DNA of 64,000 bases from Marvania coccoides. Lineage: Eukaryota; Chlorophyta; Trebouxiophyceae; Chlorellales; Chlorellaceae. Under the pieces are notes generated by a model. That model was not told the DNA's origin, made no database searches, and saw only the letters and a program-made list of their open reading frames with translations. Every line of letters starts with the position of its first letter. Position 1 is the first letter of the stretch. Both the position numbers and the translations under genes were made by a program. Shown here piece after piece: positions 9,046-18,257 of this stretch. The DNA is taken from the NCBI GenBank assembly GCA_963854735.1, contig OY978103.1, forward strand, positions 806,001-870,000, written 5' to 3'.

Positions 9046-12000
9046 TCAGAGCTTGCCGCCAGTCTGCGCCGCCACCTCAGCCGCGAAGTCGACCTCCTTC
9101 TTCTCCACCCCCTCTCCCAGCACAAAGCGGCCAAAGCGGCGCACCTGCATGTTCTCACCAATGGCAGCCACCTGCTCCTTGATGTGCTCCGCAACCGTCT
9201 TGTTGGTGTCCTTGATGAAGGGCTGTTCCAGCAGAGCGAACTCCTTGGCGATCTTGTCCACGCGGCCCTGCACAATCTTCTCGCGAATGGCCTCGGGTTT
9301 GCTCTTCAGGTCCTCCTTCTCCATCTCGATGGCGCGCTCCTTCTCCAGCACGGCCGCGGGCACGTCAGATGCCGAAACAAACTTCACGTCGGGGCAGGCA
9401 GCGATCTGCATTGCCATGTCGGAAACCAGCTCGCGGAACTTCTCGCCGCGCGCCACGAAGTCGGTCTCGCAGTTCACCTCGACCACAACGCCCAGGCGGG
9501 AGCCGGCATGGATGTAGGAGCCGATGGCGCCCTCAGAAGCCACCCTGCTAGACTTCTTGTCAGCGGAGGCAAGGCCCTTCTTGCGGAGGTACTCCTTCGC
9601 GGTCTCCAGGTCGCCGCCGCACTCCGCCAGCGCCTTCTTGCAGTCCATCATGCCCGCGCCAGACGCCTCGCGCAGCTGCTTCACCGCAGCAGCGGAGATG
9701 GCCACAGCGGGGACAGCGGCAGCAGCAGGCTTATCGTCGGCCTTCTCCTCCACCTTCTCCTCCTTCTTCTCAGCAGCCTTGGCAGCCATGGCGGAGGTCT
9801 GGGCCTCCACCTCGGCGGCAAAGTCGCCCTTGGCGGCCACCTCAATACCCTCGCCCAACACAAATCGGTCGAAACGACGAACCTGCATGTTCTCGCCGAT
9901 AGCCGCGATCTGCCCCTTGATGTGCTCCGCAACCGTCTTGTTGGTGTCCTTGATGAAGGGCTGTTCCAGCAGAGCGAACTCCTTGGCGATCTTGTCCACG
10001 CGGCCCTGCACAATCTTCTCGCGAATGGCCTCGGGTTTGCTCTTCAGGTCCTCCTTCTCCATCTCGATGGCGCGCTCCTTCTCCAGCACCGCCGCGGGCA
10101 CGTCAGATGCCGAAACAAACTTCACGTCGGGGCAGGCAGCGATCTGCATCGCCATGTCGGAAACCAGCTCGCGGAACTTCTCGCCGCGCGCCACGAAGTC
10201 GGTCTCGCAGTTCACCTCGACAAGGACACCCAAGCGGGAGCCAGCGTGGATGTAGGAGCCGATGGCGCCCTCAGCGGCGACGCGACTAGACTTCTTATCA
10301 GCAGACGCCAGGCCCTTCTTGCGGAGGAACTCCTTCGCGGCCTCCAGGTCGCCGCCGCACTCGGTGAGCGCCTTCTTACAGTCCATCATGCCCGCGCCGG
10401 ACGCCTCGCGCAGCGTCTTGACGACGGCGGCAGAAATGCCGGCAGCAGGAGCGGGGGCAGCCTTCTCCTCCTTGGCGGCAGCAGGGGCAGCAGCGGCAGC
10501 GGCCTCCTCCTCAACCACGGGGGCAGGAGCAGGGGCAGCGGCCTCCACAGGGGCGGGTGCAGGAACCTCCTCCACTGGGGCAGCCTTCTCCTCAGCCTTC
10601 TCGCTCTGCTGCTGCACACACAAAAAAAACACAGAGGAAAATGTAAGTCTTTCTGCCCTATTGTTCTGCGTTTGGTGCCCAAAATAATGTGCCCAGAATA
10701 ACGGAGAAATAGTTGTGCTGCTTCCTTTGCCACTACTGGACGCTGCTGCCACTTCTTGTTCTGTCTGTTCTGTGCGCTTGCTGAGGGCGGTGGGTGCCTC
10801 CCCCGACTAAGGGGTTGCTTCTTCCTCACTGCACTTTGGCTTTAAGTTGGGTTTGGGTTACAGCACGGGACGACTGAGCGCCCCGAGGCACCCTCCCGCC
10901 TCAGCCGCCCCTTTAATGGGGGCACGCGAACAGACAAAGATAAAAAAACCGATAAAAACGCAAAGATTATATAAAGGAAGGAAGCGCAGGAAGCATACAG
11001 AGGAGGGTGTCTAACGCAAAGAAACACGCTTTTGTTTATGCATGTTTGAAAGAAGAAAAATCGTCTATCAGAACATCAGGAAAAGATATGGAACACAATG
11101 AGAGACTGGAATAAAAAATCAAGGGAGAAAACGCCGCCCGATGTTCGAATTGTTGAAGGGGAGGAATGACAGCAGCAGAAGAACAACAGCAGCAAAGGAA
11201 ACACGATGCGTCACCATAATATCCCAGCGGTTATGATCATTAACAGTGGCTAGGGCATGGGTCATGTTGTTGAGCGATTTCCCCCCCGACCCACTCAATG
11301 ATTCTTATATTCAACCCACCGCGTTGAAGTCGCTGGACTTGACTCCAGCCCTGGCAAGCATGTAGGCCATGGAGCCAGATCCCTCGGGCAGGTCGGACAC
11401 TGCAAGAAAGAAAGAAGGAAAACCACAAGGCAGTTTGTGCATTAGAAATTCAGGAGGTACGCTGCTGCTCGCTCACGCAAGATTCGAGAATATTTGAAAT
11501 ACAGCGTCGCGGAACATCGACCCCCCCCCTTCCCCCCTCAATTAATCAATGCTTCATTCACTCGTAGCTCGTAGTCTGACTGATGCAACGTTGTTTTTAC
11601 AACGCTCTCACGCTACCACTACCACAGTAAAAAAACAATACCACCGCCAAAATCATACACCAATACTACAATATACACCGTGATCACCACCACGACATGT
11701 TCTCACCTGCCGCCAGTCCGCGAGTGCGGGTCTCCTCCTCGGCTGCGATCTCAGCGTCGCTTTTCTGGGTCAGCGCCACCTTGTCGCCGCCGCGTCCGAT
11801 GCTGCTCACGCGCACCTCCACGCTGTCGCCCACGTTGTAGTGGCGCATGTGGTCCTGCACGCCCTCGGGCAGCTTCATCTGAGACGAGTGCAGCATGCCG
11901 GTGTGGCCATCTCCCAGGTCGATGAAAATGCCAAAGGGCGCGACGGAGGAGATGGGGCCGGTGACCACGTCACCCGCCGCCACGGGGCAGGGGGTGCGGT

Positions 12001-15152: not shown

Positions 15153-18100
15153 TTAATGGCCAGCGCCTGTTTTTTCACACATCCATGCTCCGTTTTCCCC
15201 CGCCAGCTTCAACTGCACCGCCGCCAGACCCCTGAACGCCGCCGCGTCCTGAGTCACCACTACACACGTCACGCCCGCGTCTCTCAACCTCCCCATCAGC
15301 TCCGCGGCGTCGCCCTCAGCCACCGCTGATGTCGCCTCATCCAGCAGAGCCAGCCGGGGACGCCGCAGCAGCACCCTGGCAATGGCGATGCGCTGCATTT
15401 CCCCGGGGGACAGCTGCCCTGCCCAATCGGCAGATTCGATCCCCAAATCTCCGCCCATACGATCAAATAATCGACCCAGGCCAACGTCGGTTAATAATGC
15501 ACGAAGCATTACGTCATTTGGACGTTCTGTGCCAGGGTAGGCGATCTGCTGCCACAGCTTGGGGCCAGGGGCGGCCAGTGGGCGCTGTGGGAGGAACATC
15601 GCCAGCTCTGGCACCTCAAAAGGACTGTTGCTGCTGCCGTCAGCGCTGCTGGCACCGCTTCTTTGCGCTAGAGGGGCCGAATTTACGAGCAGGTCGCTGC
15701 CAAACGTGAGGGTACCAGCTGTGGGGGAGTATAGGCCGCACAGCACGCGCATCAAGGTGCTCTTTCCAGCGCCATTTGGCCCAGTAACTAAAACCCAACT
15801 TCCGGGGGCGATGGCTAAAGAAAGGTTGGTCACGAGGGGCTGCTTTCCATCTGGGGTGGACACGGACAGCCCTTGCAGCGTGGCGAGGGGCCTGGGGGTG
15901 GGGAGGGGGGTCTGGGACAGCGAGGTGAGGACCTCGAAAACGATTTCTGAGGGAGCGTCGGTGAAGAAACTGACAGGGTAGGCAGAGGTGCCTGCGGGGG
16001 TTTAAATGTAGAGGTGAGATGGGATACGCAACAGAATGGAGTTTATTATAGAAATGAGAGAGAAAAAAGTTCCCTCTTGAAGGGTCTTGGCTCTTGCAAA
16101 TAATTTTATATCTCGGGGCTCCAAATTTGCCTGAATTTGTGTGTTCTTACCGTGGGTTGGGTGGGCTACTAGCGGACACACCCCCGCGTCCCGCCTGTCG
16201 TATTGCAGTAGCGCCCTGGCGGCCGCCACTTCGCTCCAGCGAGCGCCACGAGCTCCGTGCAGCGCCATGCCCCTGCGCAGAATAGCGGGAAAAAAACAAC
16301 ACATAATTAATCTAGAATGAGGAAGAGAAATGTAAGTACACAAGAAATGAAAAAAATAGAGCTTCAAAATAAGGACGAAAAAGAAGAAGAAGAAGAAGAA
16401 GAAGAAACGTTCTTACGTTCTGGGGTCCACTGAATCGCTCCAAAAGGTGCCCTTGGCCACCAATGCCTCCCGCACCGCCTTCTCCCACCTCAGAAATGCG
16501 TCCAACAGGCGGTCCATCTCAGCAGCCGCCACCGCCACCGTGGCTGAACTTCTGTCTGGCGATAAATCTATGGAGCCCCCACCCGCGAACTGGAAGGTCA
16601 GCACGCACTGCATGGGACGCTGCGGGTCTCTGGGCGCCTCTGGGAAGATCTCTCGCACCTCCCTGCGCAGCGCAGCGCCCAGAGAATGCACCGACAGCTC
16701 CAGCGGGACGCTGCCGCCTCTCCCCAGAAACGAAAGCAGTACAGGCGGCTGCAGCACATCAGCAAAGTCTGCAGGGAAGTGAGAAATGTAGGGGATAGTA
16801 TGACGGGCATCGCGGGTGGTTGGTACTTCAGAAAATGACATCTAAAGATACCACAACGGTGGAAATTAAGATGTATTAAGATGTATTATTACCTGTTGGC
16901 CGCAGCTCTTGGGCCGTGTCACCCAGGCCGTGGCCCTGGGAACCTCCCTCTCCTGAAGTTCTCGCCCTCCCGGCCTGCAGCTGCCGCTCGTAGGAAGATA
17001 TTTTTTCCGCCGCCGCTGTTGGCGTTGGCGGCAGAGCCTCCAGCAGCCCCACCACGCGCGCCGCCAGCGCCGCCAGGATGCTGGCCTGCTCCGCCAGGTC
17101 CAGGATCTCAGTGAAGGAGTAGATCAGCGAAAGCGTCGAGAAAGACGCGTTGCTGACAAACTTTGCGACTTCGCCGCCCGTAGCTTGCCCTGCGCCCCCA
17201 GCAAACACCGCTGCTGCCACCAGCGCGTAGTTCAGCGCCGCCCCAGAGTAGTCGATGGCTCTGGTGACGCCCGCCATCCCCGCCCGCCACCATACGAGCT
17301 GTCTCTGGTTGGTTAAAGCGCTGCCGAGCGCGCCTGTCATGCTCTCTAGCTCCGCTTTCGCGCCTCGAGAAGCTGCCACGTCAGCAGCGCGGTCCCGCAA
17401 CCGCACGTGCACGAACCGCAGGTCTCCTTCCCTTCTTTCTTGAGCCACAGTGAGCCGTGCGAGCGGCGCCGCCACCAGCCGCTGCACCGCTGCCCCTGCC
17501 CAGAAGAAACCAAAGGCGGCGGCAGTGCCGCGCCACCCCAGGTACTTCCACGCCAGGCAAGAGTAAAATACCACCCGAAACGGCGCGCCGGTGGCCAGGC
17601 GCGCTGCTGAGGCCAGGGCATCGCAGAGCGTTGCCACCTCTAAAGAAATTCGCTGGTCGGGATTGTCTAACTCGCCAGGGAGCTTGGCGAAGGCGAGTCC
17701 GGTGCAGTAGCTGACATGCAGCCGGCTGGCGAGCATCCTGCGCCAGCGTAATGAAAGTAAGCCGGATATGTAGACGCCGAGCGCAGAGGCGGCGGCACAG
17801 CCGGCGTAGAGCGCGATGGCGTGCAGCAGGGCGGCTGCAAAAGCGCCGGGCTGTTTGTCGATGAGGAGCTGGTAGATGGAGCCCGCCACCTTGCCGACTG
17901 CAGATGAACACCATTGGAAAAAAAAGTTTGAATTTTTACAGTTGCACAAAATTAGGGTTGGGAGGAAGAAGAACGCGGTGACATTTGATGTGGTGTACCT
18001 TCAGCGACTAGGATGGACTCGAAAATGGAGAGCACGGCTAGAGATAGTGCCTGGTAGGGGCGCAGCTCGGCCAGCAAGCGGCGGAAGCGGCGAACGACCT

Positions 18101-18257
18101 GAAGGCCTTCTTGGGGCGGCGAGAAGGGCGGCTGGGGTGGGCCTCGCGATACTGGAGCGTCAATTTGGATCGAAGCCTCATCGGGGAGCGGCCGAGGCGC
18201 GCTGGAGCTCCGCAGAAGGGGAGTTGAGACGAGAACATCGGTCCAGGAAGCAGCCAT
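15153..18257 (-). CDS. ABCD4-like ABC half-transporter with an internal MMADHC (cblD)-like domain
   Basis: Five exons: 18257-17999, 17897-16893, 16768-16417, 16272-16151 and 15991-15153, giving 858 residues. Residues about 60-415 are an ABCD-type membrane domain with ELDNPDQR and EGDLRFVH. The run AIDYSGAALNYALV then FVSNASFSTLSLIYSF matches vertebrate ABCD4 better than peroxisomal ABCD1-3. Residues about 422-605 resemble MMADHC/cblD: LRREVREIFPE, then WEKAVREALVAKGTFWSDSV, then DPRTGMALHG, then HPTHGTSAYPVSFFTDAP. The ATPase domain follows: GPNGAGKST (about 650), FLPQRP (Q-loop), LSPGEMQR (signature), LLDEATSA (Walker B). ABCD4 exports cobalamin from lysosomes and MMADHC directs it in the cytosol, so the fusion suggests coupled B12 export and trafficking. 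Odd points: the H-loop position reads VVVTQD (Gln for His) and the signature is LSPGE. The domain assignment is by eye. Confidence 0.82.

Follow-up and report, generated by a model that had tools for sequence, protein, structure and literature searches.

We analyzed a 64,000-nucleotide stretch of the Marvania coccoides genome (GenBank assembly GCA_963854735.1, contig OY978103.1, positions 806,001 to 870,000 of the forward strand; hereafter the window, whose numbering is used for all features of the gene described here). Within it, a single five-exon gene on the minus strand (15153..18257) has a spliced translation of 858 residues, which the spliced frame, the domains and the orthologues identify as an ABCD4-type half transporter with an inserted MMADHC/CblD domain. 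All four introns are of the GT..AG type, and the spliced frame (joins 17999/17897, 16893/16768, 16417/16272 and 16151/15991) is open over 858 codons, with the stop codon TAA at 15153; the coordinates, strand, frame and junctions proposed in a first-pass annotation, which had been made from the letters alone, were correct. Using Pfam, we identified three domains in the order ABC_membrane_2, MMADHC and ABC_tran, each exceeding its curated cut-off, and the three identities that the first-pass annotation had assigned to one polypeptide were thus borne out.

Exon 1 (17999..18257, on the minus strand like all features below) encodes residues 1-86, comprising the N-terminus and the start of the membrane domain, and exon 2 (16893..17897; splicing and PF06472) encodes residues 87-421, comprising the remainder of the membrane domain and a linker. 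The MMADHC domain is divided among the following three exons: its first part lies in exon 3 (16417..16768, residues 422-539; splicing, Pfam and the ends of relatives' matches), its middle, including the hairpin, in exon 4 (16151..16272, residues 540-579; splicing and the ends of relatives' matches), and its last strand in exon 5 (15153..15991, residues 580-858; splicing and an uninterrupted open reading frame [ORF]), which also holds the entire ABC ATPase. The C-terminal CblD strand and the ATPase lie within one uninterrupted ORF, 15153-16001. Exons 3 and 4 together (16151-16768) amount to 474 nucleotides with the same phase at both ends, such that skipping them would leave the reading frame intact. 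The hairpin is lacking in one annotated variant from Chlorella vulgaris (P0021; P-numbers denote protein rows throughout).

Based on alignments to predicted proteins of relatives, P0012, P0013, P0015 and P0017 each run as one protein from the membrane domain into the first part of the CblD domain, with matches that end at residues 539, 538, 543 and 538, respectively, at the end of exon 3 or just beyond. The matches of P0010 and P0011 end at residues 580 and 583, at the end of exon 4 or just beyond, and that of P0020 ends at residue 421, the end of exon 2. The P0013 match begins at residue 87, the start of exon 2, which together with splicing delimits exon 1; those of P0012 and P0017 begin at residues 81 and 80. 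We infer that the relatives' predictions are raw ORFs called without introns, because P0007 starts without a methionine and P0015 has a non-conserved hydrophobic tail at the end of exon 3. Five further proteins (P0001, P0002, P0004, P0007 and P0008) align continuously from the membrane domain through the ATPase, with all three domains in each. Since the predicted proteins of relatives span both insertion joints, both joints are supported.

The MMADHC/CblD core domain (residues 444-599; 15933..16703, spanning introns 3 and 4) was delimited by PF10229 and the structure 5a4r. The Pfam MMADHC match covers residues 444-595, scoring 40.0 bits in the whole protein (E = 4.8e-10) and 44.8 bits with the segment alone (E = 1.7e-11) against a cut-off of 27, and it extends over profile positions 124-264 of 272; the insert thus has no counterpart of the first 123 positions. 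Given the E-value in the whole protein and the public proteins that share the segment, the match is not due to chance. Exon 3 by itself gave a sub-threshold MMADHC match (24 bits), so the signal is borne by the exons jointly. When the insert was compared with solved structures, the best match was the CblD homologue 5a4r (E = 7.7e-7), and the CblD entries 5cuz, 6x8z and 9mrs ranked next. The MMADHC-like reading of the middle segment in the first-pass annotation therefore holds in the profile search; no other Pfam family matched the segment at E 0.01 and an NCBIfam search of it gave no match, and assignment to another family is rejected on these grounds. The residue stretches on which that reading had relied (LRREVREIFPE, EALVAKGTFWSDSV, DPRTGMALHG and HPTHGTSAYPVSFFTDAP) are all present in the insert. 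The insert resembles the MMADHC/CblD core (PF10229; 5a4r, 5cuz, 6x8z and 9mrs) in its hairpin and its W.D..DP and HP..G stretches; however, it is embedded in a membrane transporter, it is without the N-terminal region, and its cobalt-ligating cysteine is replaced. Over the core, its identity is 27% with the 5a4r sequence and 35% with a separate CblD encoded by the alga itself.

The membrane domain (ABC_membrane_2, PF06472; residues 71-318; 17203..18047, spanning intron 1) scored 138 bits. The best match of the membrane region in the PDB was ABCD4 (6jbj; 144 bits, E = 6.9e-41), and the runner-up was a full-size ABC transporter D family member 1 (9wfu, 1337 residues; 86 bits, E = 4.6e-23), whereas ABCD3 and ABCD1 matched at E = 8.9e-9 and 5.8e-8. 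Judged by these similarities, the transporter part is of the ABCD4 type, nearest among ABCD transporters of known structure, as the first-pass annotation had supposed. Like human ABCD4 (cblJ, 6jbj), it is a half-size ABCD transporter in which the DNPDQR stretch and the equivalent of Asn-141 are conserved; the latter (Asn-165, aligned with the residue numbered as human ABCD4 Asn-141) is invariant in all 12 aligned fused proteins. Replacement of human Asn-141 by Lys is reported to abolish cobalamin transport, and ATP-driven cobalamin movement by human ABCD4 has been demonstrated in liposomes (both in the available text of PMC8113721).

The single ATPase domain (ABC_tran, PF00005; residues 634-801; 15327..15830; 77.4 bits) carries the stretches GPNGAGKST, LSPGE and LLDE in translation, the Walker A, signature and Walker B motifs; the LSPGE stretch is shared with the mammalian ABCD4 sequence P0041. 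Codon 827 (15249..15251) encodes Gln at the H-loop position, as read by pattern. Among the 17 of 31 fused rows readable there, Gln is found in this alga and 12 relatives, and His in P0023, P0024, P0025 and P0038. Human ABCD4 acts as a homodimer, and in vertebrate ABCD4 the linker between membrane domain and ATPase, judged by eye, is only a few tens of residues long, in contrast to the linker described here. Because the ATPase half of human ABCD4 faces the cytosol (available text of PMC8113721), the insert, which occupies the position of this linker, should by analogy be cytosolic.

A search of public proteins with the CblD part identified at least 16 proteins with the same segment (36-63% identity), a search with the membrane part identified at least 31, and a profile search gave at least 203 matches, of which 120 were listed; each of the three scored at most 8000 candidates and required shared five-residue words. 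Named proteins with the same domain order come from Chlorella vulgaris, Micractinium tetrahymenae, M. conductrix, Nannochloris 'desiccata', Botryococcus braunii (label Botrbrau1), Picocystis salinarum and Klebsormidium nitens; another fused protein, P0038, is labelled SM000315S11895, probably the zygnematophyte Spirogloea. Based on taxonomy records, Picocystis belongs to the Picocystophyceae, Klebsormidium to the Streptophyta and Micractinium to the Trebouxiophyceae. The latter class also includes Chlorella, Nannochloris and Botryococcus. The first-pass annotation had treated the fusion as a trait of this alga and had raised the question of related algae: it occurs in Chlorella relatives, Botryococcus and Picocystis as well as in the streptophyte Klebsormidium, and the idea that it is peculiar to M. 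coccoides is rejected. The fusion would accordingly be older than the split between Chlorophyta and Streptophyta.

Among the matches listed, PF10229 was absent from the precomputed domain list of all 51 vertebrate ABCD4-type rows (P0039-P0092 minus P0054, P0070 and P0077; many are isoforms), and neither fused nor unfused ABCD4 of Chlamydomonas, Mamiellophyceae or land plants appeared. We do not claim a haptophyte case: P0026, labelled as a Pavlova lutheri scaffold, groups with Picocystis P0023 and P0025 (99/97) and is probably a green contaminant; it is included in the hairpin, Pfam-scan, identity, tree and N-terminus counts. P0027, an ABCD4-like protein with a long linker, had no MMADHC match at E 1e-4; it was part of the query alignment of the profile search and was left out of the cysteine, identity, tree and N-terminus counts. 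Public entries for ABCD4 or ABC transporters from Chlorella vulgaris, Micractinium, Nannochloris, Klebsormidium and Picocystis have the same three domains in the same order; however, they are named after the ABC part alone. The architecture is thus already visible in public Pfam annotation, and the fusion itself is apparently undescribed in the open-access full texts searched, in which we found no description of it.

Compared with this alga, 11 close relatives (P0001-P0009, P0018 and P0019) are 59-70% identical in the insert, 51-61% in the membrane part and 46-53% in the ATPase; for P0001, the values are 70% for the CblD domain, 61% for the membrane domain and 52% for the ATPase. When all 19 comparisons with this alga are considered, identity is higher in the insert than in the membrane part in 17. 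Across 20 fused proteins, pairwise identities average 48.4% in the membrane domain, 50.0% in the CblD domain and 43.1% in the ATPase, and they are correlated between membrane and CblD domains (r = 0.91), between CblD domain and ATPase (r = 0.92) and between membrane domain and ATPase (r = 0.96). The domain identities rise and fall in parallel, as expected for one inherited unit. In a tree of the CblD domain, a branch with 94/91 support, present in 96% of 200 bootstrap trees, separates the 20 fused rows from two canonical sequences, the separate CblD of the alga and 5a4r; this agrees with a single origin of the fused domain without proving it.

Codons 570-571 (16176..16181) encode Val-Cys at the positions aligned with Cys-261 and Cys-262 of CblD, confirming the first-pass alignment, in which the first cysteine of the CC pair is Val (Val-570) and the second is kept (Cys-571). 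In human CblD, Cys-261 is described as the sulfur ligand of cobalt, and the vicinal thiolate of Cys-262 is said to initiate Co-S bond cleavage during methionine synthase loading (available text of PMC12272874); both cysteines are described as functionally important (available text of PMC13376404). Of the 31 fused rows, P0021 and the truncated P0012, P0013, P0015, P0017 and P0020 were unreadable at the hairpin, which left 25 for scoring. The Cys-261 equivalent is Cys in none of the 25 (Val, Ile, Leu, Pro, Thr or Ala is present instead), whereas the Cys-262 equivalent is kept in 22 and the Pro that follows it is present in 24; the hairpin also has many invariant columns across 12 aligned proteins. 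Because the ligand is lost while the domain stays well conserved, docking fits better than cobalt chemistry, and the fused domain is more likely a docking or hand-off domain than a site of cobalt-sulfur capture. The first-pass annotation had proposed that export and cytosolic capture are coupled in one chain; its domains, single polypeptide, ABCD4 type and Val/Cys pair stand, whereas capture in the CblD sense becomes less likely, because the Cys-261 ligand needed for it in the cited description is absent from 25/25 readable fused proteins.

Searches for other B12 genes covered the window's own assembly (22.46 Mb, 15 contigs). A separate canonical CblD gene lies at G000:C4:475070-475861; it reads GCCK at the cysteine pair, scores 110.8 bits against MMADHC and, by our own splicing, encodes a minimal core of ~176 residues. 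This copy rejects the notion that the fused domain is the sole CblD of the alga; since a separate CblD with the CC pair exists, the fused copy would be a second, specialized CblD domain. The separate gene seems to be core-only, unlike animal CblD with its long N-terminal region. The genome also encodes B12-dependent methionine synthase MetH (E = 3.4e-96), methylmalonyl-CoA mutase (E = 1.5e-199; G000:C4:443726-446196, ~29 kb from the separate CblD gene) and MMAB (E = 2.2e-57), and the MetE N-domain had no match in this genome, with matches in 9 of 14 control genomes; by its gene content, the genome looks B12-dependent. Methylmalonyl-CoA mutase is reported to be absent from chlorophytes except sporadically, and CblF to be found almost exclusively in dinoflagellates (both in the available text of PMC11439496). 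Two LMBR1-family loci were identified, neither assignable to LMBD1, and the ORF at one of them had no PDB match. The literature is divided on LMBD1 (CblF): contrary to its near restriction to dinoflagellates in PMC11439496, putative ABCD4 and LMBD1 homologues have been reported in Chlamydomonas by BLAST (available text of PMC10828217), and such a homologue argues against LMBD1 being generally absent from green algae. Among the separate genes that the first-pass annotation had considered relevant, MMADHC is therefore present, LMBD1 is not assigned, and MMACHC was undetected in searches that had no positive control.

In animals, ABCD4 and MMADHC are two separate proteins. From the fusion, the domain identities, the conservation, the cysteine change and the B12-dependent genome context, all of which are shown here, we infer the substrate, membrane, partner and hand-off, as well as a coupling of export to hand-off. 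The ABCD4 of this alga probably carries its tethered CblD core as a docking platform for B12 hand-off, not as a cobalt-sulfur catalyst. The half-size ABCD4 would carry cobalamin from the lumen of the lysosome or vacuole into the cytosol, and the CblD core, permanently tethered in the cytosolic linker between membrane and ATPase domains, would sit at the mouth of the pore. The tether would keep the next B12 handler at the exit, be it MetH itself, the separate canonical CblD or, should the alga have it, CblC, such that B12 leaving the pore would be handed on and not lost. The fused domain would serve as the docking and hand-off surface, a role suggested by the replacement of its cobalt-ligating cysteine, and the separate CblD with the CC pair would perform cobalt-sulfur loading. 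CblC and CblD are reported interaction partners of human ABCD4 and LMBD1 (available text of PMC8113721), and the fusion would fix such a contact in one chain.

Several observations weigh against this reading. PF10229 scored above its cut-off in just 11 of the 18 fused relatives scanned, the Klebsormidium domain fell slightly under it (25.5 bits), and MMADHC was unreported at E 1e-4 in the Pfam scan of P0001, P0002, P0006, P0007, P0008 and P0014; these six have insertions in the domain, yet are 47-70% identical to the domain of this alga. For P0014 and P0016, the order of conservation is reversed (membrane part 51%, insert 47%). The CblD tree contains only two canonical rows and was flagged for long branches. 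The second cysteine position is Ala in the Picocystis-like P0023, P0025 and P0026 (3/25), which therefore have no kept cysteine. Lastly, CblC (MMACHC) was undetected with either PF16690 or the human sequence; because both searches were without a positive control, its absence is not claimed, and the human docking partner may be missing or may have been overlooked. Should CblC truly be missing, the candidate docking partners would be the separate CblD or MetH.

It is unlikely that the fused domain itself binds cobalt through Cys-571 and is the true cytosolic B12 acceptor at the pore. Retention of this cysteine, of the following Pro and of the invariant hairpin columns would agree with such a role; however, the human ligand is Cys-261, not Cys-262 (available text of PMC12272874), no readable fused protein has Cys at the ligand position, and the Picocystis-like proteins read Val-Ala or Ala-Ala. 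The probability is lower still that the insert has no B12 role and serves regulation or structure instead, for example as a dimer brace or an ATPase brake. The lost cobalt ligand, the failure to detect CblC and the Gln at the H-loop position, which may reflect unusual ATPase control, are compatible with a brace or brake, whereas the insert belongs to CblD and to no other family, is joined precisely to an ABCD4-type transporter, retains the hairpin and is usually more conserved than the membrane part.

We consider it very unlikely that the algal transporter carries a different substrate, such as acyl-CoA, or resides in another membrane. ABCD1-3 carry acyl-CoA (available text of PMC8113721), the membrane part is similar to the full-size D family member 1 as well, and CBA1 is the protein shown to be necessary for uptake in Chlamydomonas (available text of PMC10828217); however, ABCD4 is far ahead of all other matches, the transporter is fused to a B12 trafficking domain, and the Asn-141 equivalent is invariant. 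Finally, although intron 2 (16892-16769) links the membrane domain to the CblD domain by splice signals alone in the window, a faulty gene model that merged two neighboring genes is barely credible and is rejected, based on the ORF shared by the CblD C-terminus and the ATPase, the relatives' predicted proteins that cross the joints, and concordant named gene models from six genera.

Codons 13-15 (18213..18221) encode Pro-Leu-Leu, a dileucine-type N-terminal motif common to fused proteins. PL[LI] occurs in 14 of 19 fused N-termini, compared with 2.1 expected by shuffling (related rows are not independent), and in none of the 51 vertebrate ABCD4 rows, compared with 1.9 expected; the fused rows without it are P0010, P0011, P0014, P0016 and P0038. 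The count covers 19 of the 31 fused rows, as the rest start inside the protein or, like P0021, duplicate another row. By eye, an acidic residue is present at the classical acidic-dileucine place in some fused N-termini only. Human ABCD4 reaches lysosomes only with LMBD1 (available text of PMC8113721), whereas many fused proteins bear the N-terminal PL[LI], and we regard the motif as a lead for possible self-targeting to the lysosome or vacuole. A bolder possibility, which we hold as doubtful, in part because of the putative LMBD1 homologue in Chlamydomonas, is an ancient green-plant machine that releases and hands off B12 in one piece: its CblD-derived domain would dock the carrier, sense the acceptor and couple ATPase cycles, and its N-terminal sorting motif would replace the LMBD1 escort. 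If this were true, animal ABCD4 and CblD would be predicted to meet directly at the lysosome.

Elsewhere in the window, an ORF at 9046-10806 combines a long N-terminal part with a C-terminal half that matches elongation factor Ts, based on a scan of 10 of the 22 long ORFs of the window.

The conserved fusion of a transporter with a chaperone constitutes genetic evidence for physical coupling of the two steps and offers a single testable protein. In surveys of algal B12 genes, a search for CblD may pick up the transporter, and a count of CblJ conceals a CblD domain. The cysteine change provides a handle for separating docking from cobalt chemistry.

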